Made by a program: the position numbers and the translations under genes. A model generated the notes under the pieces. The model saw only the letters and a program-made list of their open reading frames with translations, searched no databases and was not told the origin of the DNA. A stretch of DNA of 42,129 nucleotides from a virus, in IMG/VR virus record IMGVR_UViG_3300021467_000012, positions 1-42,129 of that record; one strand, given 5' to 3'. Of this stretch, positions 18,053-27,952 are shown one piece after another. The first letter of the stretch is position 1, and each line of letters opens with the position of its first letter.

Positions 18053-18143
18053 CCGCCAGCCATTGTTCACCTTTCGGTCTTTGTTCTGGCGGTCGAGGAA
18101 AGAAGGTCGATACTTTCCTCTATCCCGACACTCTTCAGTGCCG
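18053..18143 (-). ncRNA. Three-hairpin structured leader RNA
   Basis: In an AT-rich genome this 90-base stretch is GC-rich and folds, on the minus strand, into three tandem hairpins: CGGCACT/AGTGTCG with a GAAG loop (18143-18126), GAGGAAAG/CTTTCCTC (18120-18095), and CCGCCAG/CTGGCGG (18092-18053) capped by ACC-GAAA-GGT, a GNRA tetraloop. A pair that is G-U on the minus strand would be an A-C mismatch on the plus strand, so the minus strand is the likely RNA. It lies between two genes, 18 bases before an ATG: a riboswitch-like leader or small RNA. Confidence 0.6.
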
Positions 18144-23563: not shown

Positions 23564-23626
23564 AAAACACCCGCCTCAATCCCCGCTTAGAGATTGGCAA
23601 GGGCGGGTGTTTTAAGCGGGGATTGA
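23564..23626 (-). promoter_or_regulatory. Attenuator-like pair of competing hairpins
   Basis: Two perfect inverted repeats are interleaved. On the minus strand the order is B1 (TCAATCCCCGCTTA, 23626-23613), A1 (AAAACACCCGCC, 23613-23602), B2 (23589-23576), A2 (23575-23564). A1:A2 is a 12-bp stem followed by TTTTTAAT, a good terminator; B1:B2 is a 14-bp stem that excludes it. This lies between a consensus promoter and the HNH start. A 30-codon frame (MARQTNNINPRL start) runs through the element and could be a leader peptide. Confidence 0.7.
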
Positions 23627-23677
23627 TATTGTTTGTTTGCCTTGCCATTTTTTTATTCACTTTTCAAACTCATCCTT

Positions 23678-23705
23678 ATTATACTCATTTCTATTTTTTT
23701 GTCAA
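23678..23705 (-). promoter_or_regulatory. Consensus sigma70 promoter upstream of the attenuator
   Basis: TTGACA (23705-23700), 16 bases, TATAAT (23683-23678). The -35 box is made of the last codons of the upstream HTH-like gene. Transcripts would start near 23671, run through the competing hairpins, then into the HNH gene and the structured RNA. Confidence 0.8.
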
Positions 23706-24780: not shown

Positions 24781-25269
24781 TCAAACCTTAACTTCCGCTT
24801 GGACATCCTTGAACCTCGCCTTGAATTTCTTAATCATTTCTCTTAAAAGTAGGGCTTTTTTAATCAACATTCTGAATTCTCGTAGGTTGAATGACACAAT
24901 CTTCTCTTCGGTTATTTTTTCTGCATCTACGCTATAGAGAACCAATTTGGAAGGCAAGCCGGTAATGAAAGTATAAGTTTTGCACTGAATTTTGCCAACC
25001 TTAATGACTTTTTCCTTTGTCCTTCTGGTATAAGTTTTTAGTTCGTAGCAGTATTTGTCATCAACTCGGTCTGGCATTCCAACTACCAAAACGCTTTCCT
25101 TATTCAATCTCAATACTCGTTGAAAGGTTTTTACATTGTCAAAGCCAAGCCGTGAATGGATTAACCTGCCTCTTGAGATTGCTTCCTGTAAATAATGAGA
25201 GGTAAATTCGTTCACTCTCGGGGGATATCCGAGAAGTCCGGACACCTCGCTACTGGTTATCTTGTTCAT
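24781..25269 (-). CDS. Cas4/RecB-like PD-(D/E)XK nuclease
   Basis: 162 aa. His38 in GRLIHSR, Asp67 in VGMPDRVDD, Glu76-x-Lys78 in YELKT and Gln95 to Tyr99 in QCKTY give the full RecB/Cas4 nuclease signature (H, D, ExK, QxxxY). The four-Cys iron-sulfur cluster of true Cas4 is absent. It probably trims DNA ends, in recombination or in attack on host or rival DNA. Strong SD (AGGAGGAGG). Last gene of the operon, one base after the protease gene. Confidence 0.75.
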   Translation of the reverse strand: MNKITSSEVSGLLGYPPRVNEFTSHYLQEAISRGRLIHSRLGFDNVKTFQRVLRLNKESVLVVGMPDRVDDKYCYELKTYTRRTKEKVIKVGKIQCKTYTFITGLPSKLVLYSVDAEKITEEKIVSFNLREFRMLIKKALLLREMIKKFKARFKDVQAEVKV

Positions 25270-27924: not shown

Positions 27925-27952
27925 TTAAAGATTTTGTTTAAGACCGACCTTG

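Follow-up and report, generated by a model that had tools for sequence, protein, structure and literature searches.

Either of two strong interlocked hairpins, predicted to block each other, nearly equal in computed stability and one of them probably a transcription stop signal, can form in the RNA that leads into an HNH endonuclease gene of an uncultivated phage, and phages related to it carry the same interlocked layout, in other sequences, before their capsid genes, probably as attenuators. The DNA analysed (the window) is the whole of a 42,129-nucleotide stretch, IMG/VR record IMGVR_UViG_3300021467_000012.

Interleaved repeats upstream of the HNH gene

On the minus strand of the window, positions 23626-23563 hold two perfect inverted repeats that are interleaved in the order B1 A1 B2 A2. 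The parts of this HNH leader and its surroundings are as follows.

23705-23678, minus strand: sigma-70-type promoter, TTGACA-16-TATAAT, 12/12 consensus matches
ATG 23648 to stop 23556, minus strand: open frame of 30 codons, MARQTNNINPRLKHPPLPISKRGLRRVFLI (translation of the sequence), crossing the whole element
23626-23613, minus strand: B1 arm, TCAATCCCCGCTTA, perfect 14-bp inverted repeat with B2
23613-23602, minus strand: A1 arm, AAAACACCCGCC, perfect 12-bp inverted repeat with A2
23590..23601, minus strand: spacer between A1 and B2
23589-23576, minus strand: B2 arm, pairing with B1
23575-23564, minus strand: A2 arm, terminator-like 3' side, running into U5 at 23567-23563
23549-22986, minus strand: HNH/endonuclease VII-like gene, 187 amino acids (phrog_1035, E=9.5e-32)

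The arms match at 14/14 positions in B and 12/12 in A, and AAUAU comes after the UUUUU of A2 (23567-23563). Base 23613 is common to B1 and A1, the linker there being 0 if either stem is counted one pair shorter. Neighbouring arms are separated by linkers of 0-1 bases and the two arms of each stem by 23-26 bases, so that the "loops of 0-1 bases" described in an earlier note on this DNA hold as linkers between arms and not as stem loops. That note had also placed a consensus promoter ahead of the element, as is found, and a possible leader peptide within it, of which the open frame through the element stands while a peptide role has nothing beyond that frame in its favour. The promoter, promoter-like by sequence match, lies upstream of the HNH gene and on its strand. 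It has a perfect counterpart at 21413-21386, with 83% identity over 35 bases, which precedes a small gene also beginning ATGGCAAGG. The DnaA-box-like sequence TTATCCACA is repeated at 21432-21402 and 21206-21176 of the window, shortly before TTGACA promoters.

The HNH leader scored 39 when the window was scanned for interleaved stems, and none of 100 shuffled versions of the window exceeded 27. The interleaved 12- and 14-bp repeats of the earlier note are confirmed and lie well outside chance. The 14-bp repeat is the longest perfect inverted repeat in the window (at least 10 bp, loops up to 80), and the 12-bp repeat is equalled there by a single AT-rich case with a 74-base loop. Interleaved-stem scoring with G-U pairs on GC-rich contigs returned mostly chance matches, and a scan restricted to Watson-Crick pairs was therefore used, while in the whole-contig detector described below hits were filtered by GC content and U-run; over 1.81 Mb of phage DNA the strict Watson-Crick scan found long, GC-rich, near-perfect linkerless stems only in the HNH leader and at one other place in the window:

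20548-20492, minus strand: sister element, AGGTCGGCTAC / ACAGGATGGGG / 12 nt / GTAGCAGACCT / 1 nt / CCCCATCCTGT, without a U-run

The near-perfect, GC-rich stems of the sister element score 31 against the same shuffle maximum of 27, and its two states differ widely in energy (-13 and -31). Because it has the B1 A1 B2 A2 layout but no U-run, the layout alone does not mean an attenuator. One further minus-strand place, 18676-18616, exceeded all shuffles in the interleaved-stem scan, and was rejected as a third interleaved candidate since a nested hairpin (-45 kcal/mol) dominates there; a plus-strand candidate at 25152-25224 lies inside a gene and was set aside as coding.

Other structured places were seen on the minus strand. 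The intergenic segments 18676-18616, 18150-18045 and 27290-27190 stand out as structured, GC-rich islands in a genome rich in AT. On the 3' side of the HNH gene, 22920-22635 is a large structured region with a perfect 13-bp closing stem and a folding z-score of -5.9, which has no match in Rfam; this region and the bases just beyond it contain two copies of GTGTGAGAGAAATAAAA. The motif AAGGTCGG is found at 27951, 27479, 21134, 20784, 20549 and 18866, and also in relatives, typically directly 3' of a stop codon and a short distance 5' of the next start; in related contigs the coding strand has 13 instances of a stop codon followed by 0-3 bases and AAGGTCG, where shuffles give about 2. A hairpin near 18110 has a loop, UAUCGACCUU, complementary to the motif.

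The HNH leader is present once in the genome and its 23-base core has no match in IMG/VR, which rules out a mobile repeat element; the plain mobile repeat at unrelated sites that the earlier note had raised against its own reading was thus not seen. GenBank phages searched with the HNH leader region matched its coding part only. A search of IMG/VR with the HNH protein gave no close relatives; an alignment-based search recovered distant ones, near which no comparable element was found, and an HNH search in 60 related records returned a single match, a distant relative already known. Relatives of the genes adjoining the HNH leader and the sister element were searched for and none found, and Rfam, in strict and permissive modes, gave nothing meaningful, with no window match at the curated threshold. 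By these searches the HNH leader is not a mobile repeat, nor can it be traced through relatives as a feature linked to HNH, and since it has no homologue in the collections searched the switch cannot be checked by covariation at the HNH locus.

Predicted folding and proposed action of the HNH leader

The computed energies of the two hairpins, -28.9 kcal/mol for B and -30.6 kcal/mol for A, make them near-isoenergetic, with A slightly more stable. For a transcript taken to start near 23671, simulated co-transcriptional folding gives B a probability of 0.99-1.00 at transcript lengths of 92-102, and A a probability of 0.93-0.97 at lengths of 108-124, A being the lowest-energy fold once A2 is complete. 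The predicted barrier from B to A is about 30 kcal/mol (29.6) along paths without pseudoknots; the energies refer to 37 C with pseudoknots left out, and the amino-acid composition hints, by a simple formula, at a warm host. It is likely, on these computations, that B forms first and persists with A1 held in its loop. In this co-transcriptional check, of a kind that the earlier note had proposed, its two alternative folds come out as comparable in stability and as formed in order, B before A.

Hairpin A has a 12-bp GC-rich stem followed by U5, with a 26-base loop interrupted by a third small stem that part of the bases between the arms can form in the A state. By a score formula it would be a borderline intrinsic terminator: the stem and U-run of the terminator that the earlier note saw in A1:A2 are there, and its strength, with five U and a long loop, is marginal.

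We tentatively favour, at slightly less than even confidence, a leader RNA with two stable states, transcribed from a promoter of its own, in which B prevents the terminator A before the HNH gene. B would close once B2 is transcribed and would trap A1 in its loop, because B1 and A1, and B2 and A2, are joined without linkers; the terminator hairpin would then not form fully, and polymerase would read through into the HNH gene. If a ribosome on the leader frame kept B1 from pairing, or if a protein or a pause did so, A would form and transcription would stop before HNH. We infer from the model both that A terminates and that B prevents A in the cell, and the trigger of the change is named on the same basis; exclusion of one stem by the other through interlocking is likewise a computed prediction. 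The minimum-energy fold that includes the HNH start codon pairs A2 with the start region while B is formed. This pairing is weak, being rich in G-U and A-U, and B may also be an off state if it occurs. Attenuation is a reasonable candidate reading of the HNH leader, and the earlier interpretation as an attenuator-like switch is partly supported.

The interleaved layout in related phages

Related uncultured phages were collected by terminase and capsid searches, and their "scaffold" and "capsid" genes are so named by position and conservation, not by family match. The strict scan led to an intergenic gap in one of them (L038, 16009-16064), upstream of a scaffold-like gene that itself precedes a putative major capsid gene. 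When 38 gaps before the scaffold-like gene were taken together with the two window elements, 21 of the 40 sequences contained an interleaved B/A pair at p <= 0.025, the L1 and L3 linkers being mostly 0 in the strong cases. Sixteen distinct versions, mostly unrelated in sequence, combine B stems of 8-15 bp with A arms of 22-53 nt and linkers mostly of 0, and have an intrinsic-terminator stem with a U-run that re-uses the 3' part of A2; one of the 16 (L009) was found by the detector described next, and its location before a scaffold gene is putative.

A detector was run over whole contigs, 2.24 Mb in all. With a cut-off of -46 kcal/mol it picked out 22 places, including some elements counted twice (overlapping loci) and a few that look coding, where three shuffled sets of that size yielded 0, 0 and 1; the HNH leader scores -44. 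In distant prophages, scanned over 1.2 Mb, the detector showed no excess (10 against 5 and 10). The large element is absent at the scaffold gap in the window and in L212, L213, L214 and L216, which are nearest to it in the capsid protein. Elements of 13 related loci gave no Rfam match at the curated threshold, one tRNA only being reported. A search with the capsid protein gave no relatives in GenBank phages or bacterial genomes, and a terminase search of bacterial genomes gave relatives of at most 48% identity, in mixed MAGs. The relatives' elements were picked by a detector that rewards complementarity, and the support for them is their excess over shuffles, their clustering at one gene gap and their coupling to a terminator, not independent covariation. 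Another phage contig, L166, has at 868 on the minus strand a 37-nt hairpin with A- and U-tracts; the apical loop is complementary over 12 bp to the sequence immediately preceding the hairpin, which is the layout of the HNH leader.

The best reading of the relatives' elements is attenuation in three steps: B would form and trap A1, and A2 would then make the terminator, whose stem is built from the 3' part of A2 together with what follows. If B1 were masked, A1:A2 would form and transcription would continue; termination would thus go with B and read-through with A. Shared bases make A1:A2 and the A2 terminator mutually exclusive, and coexistence of B1:B2 with A1:A2 is implausible because B1 lies at the base of a helix of ~20-40 bp and B2 in its apical loop. 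In many relatives B1 starts 3 to 28 bases past the stop codon of the upstream frame, so that a ribosome finishing the upstream gene could mask it. The logic proposed for the HNH leader, in which B permits and A stops, is the opposite; it is without the last step of the relatives' order, and A itself is the terminator-like stem. Attenuation at the HNH leader has no comparative support within the collections searched, the layout recurring in relatives at another locus.

It is possible, if slightly under an even chance, that an uncultivated phage lineage carries a class of attenuators whose layout is conserved while their sequence is not. In these a short upstream stem, B1:B2, would interlock with a long antiterminator, A1:A2, and block it without having bases in common with it, so releasing a terminator before the capsid genes; the HNH leader would be a compact offshoot of inverted logic. 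If so, natural phages use the interlocked layout repeatedly at one gene junction while its sequence changes freely, which would explain why searches for RNA families by sequence (Rfam) miss such elements, and would provide a testable model for co-transcriptional folding and for the setting of capsid gene expression. If the switch works, two RNA stems can be made mutually exclusive by topology and order of synthesis, without competition for bases.

Alternative readings and known systems

The alternative that survives best, unlikely as it is, holds that the two strong hairpins are mere barriers that protect an mRNA end, terminate in part or insulate HNH from upstream read-through, with no switching. 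The sister element, which shares the layout without a U-run, and the other GC-rich structured islands between genes of the region fit such a role, as does the weak terminator of T4 mobE, which simply halts about 30% of transcripts (PMC2988022). A barrier would not, however, call for two perfect, linkerless interleaved stems of almost the same energy, and in the relatives each of three stems excludes the next, with the terminator last.

Less probable again is control of translation, in which the B state would shut the HNH start, either through pairing of A2 (GGGUGUUUU with AAGGCACUU) or through CCUUGCC:GGCAAGG from the B loop, and the A state would free it. The spacer sequence CCTTGCC (from 23602) lies in that loop and is an exact complement of GGCAAGG at the start codons of the leader frame (23646) and of HNH (23546); the fold already described combines A2-start pairing with B; and structures that hide the RBS are reported for I-TevI, I-TevII, I-TevIII, Aeh1 mobE and T4 segB (PMC3014915, PMC2988022). 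Against this, the A2 pairing is the weak one noted above, GGCAAGG is found 12 times on the HNH strand, and a search upstream of the HNH ATG gave no Shine-Dalgarno sequence to hide.

There is a small chance that the repeats are a DNA-level site, or a mutational product of template switching, recombination or replication, rather than an RNA device. Perfect repeats absent from every relative would fit a recent origin, and single-stranded DNA folds too; but the promoter and U-run are strand-consistent, in the relatives the layout keeps to the coding strand, within a single gene gap, and is coupled to a terminator, and the order B1 A1 B2 A2 cannot be made by one contiguous snap-back copy. Least probable, and called unlikely in the earlier note too, is simultaneous formation of both stems as a long, threaded, knot-like pseudoknot: similar stem lengths (14 and 12; 11 and 11 in the sister element) would by length allow side-by-side helices joined at opposite ends, but zero linkers with stems of more than one helical turn would force the 3' end to thread through, knots are rare exceptions among solved RNA structures (PMC11218946), and with the relatives' A arms of 22-53 nt a basal B1 cannot reach B2 in the apical loop.

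That leader hairpins or terminators control phage homing endonucleases is established in T4 and its relatives (PMC2988022, PMC3014915), and the earlier note's view that attenuation of such a nuclease would be unusual was too strong. As proposed for the HNH leader, RNA structure or a terminator limits expression of a phage nuclease in T4 I-TevI, mobE, segB and segF and in Aeromonas seg43(25); the T4-type leaders are single hairpins that hide or precede the RBS, or in-gene terminators, and no two interleaved stems are described in the passages on them (PMC2988022, PMC3014915). Interleaved stems in a phage leader are common to the HNH leader and the autoregulatory pseudoknot of T4/T2 gene 32, a true H-type with stems stacked on each other (PMC3014915). 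The H-type needs loops long enough for both stems, and in the HNH leader the linkers are 0 and the stems 12 and 14 bp; the gene 32 pseudoknot resembles instead a small element before the scaffold gene.

That element, a candidate H-type pseudoknot directly 5' of the scaffold-like gene, occurs at 4041-4003 of the window (minus strand) and at about 25 related loci (e.g. L213, L215, L220, L245). It has a 5-bp stem, an 8-nt loop with a C/U-rich arm, an A-rich linker and a Shine-Dalgarno-like GNNG pairing with the loop arm, and would hide the Shine-Dalgarno sequence. In an alignment of 22 sequences chosen for the pattern, with linkers trimmed, 97% of cells pair, 55 cells are changed on both sides, and the covariation score of 0.72 compares with 0.17 at the highest when the versions are slid. 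It has no Rfam match at the curated threshold. An interleaved attenuator was found neither in Rfam nor in the literature searched, which lay mostly outside subscription journals, so its absence is not proven.

Among the closest known systems are the trp and other leader-peptide attenuators, which likewise place ordered, mutually exclusive stems before a gene and end in an intrinsic terminator. Their order of anti-antiterminator, antiterminator and terminator is the three-step order proposed for the relatives; the HNH leader differs in having neither a run of regulatory codons nor the last step. In classical attenuators the segments exclude one another through common bases, whereas B and A of the HNH leader share at most one base, and their predicted exclusion would come from interlocking without linkers.
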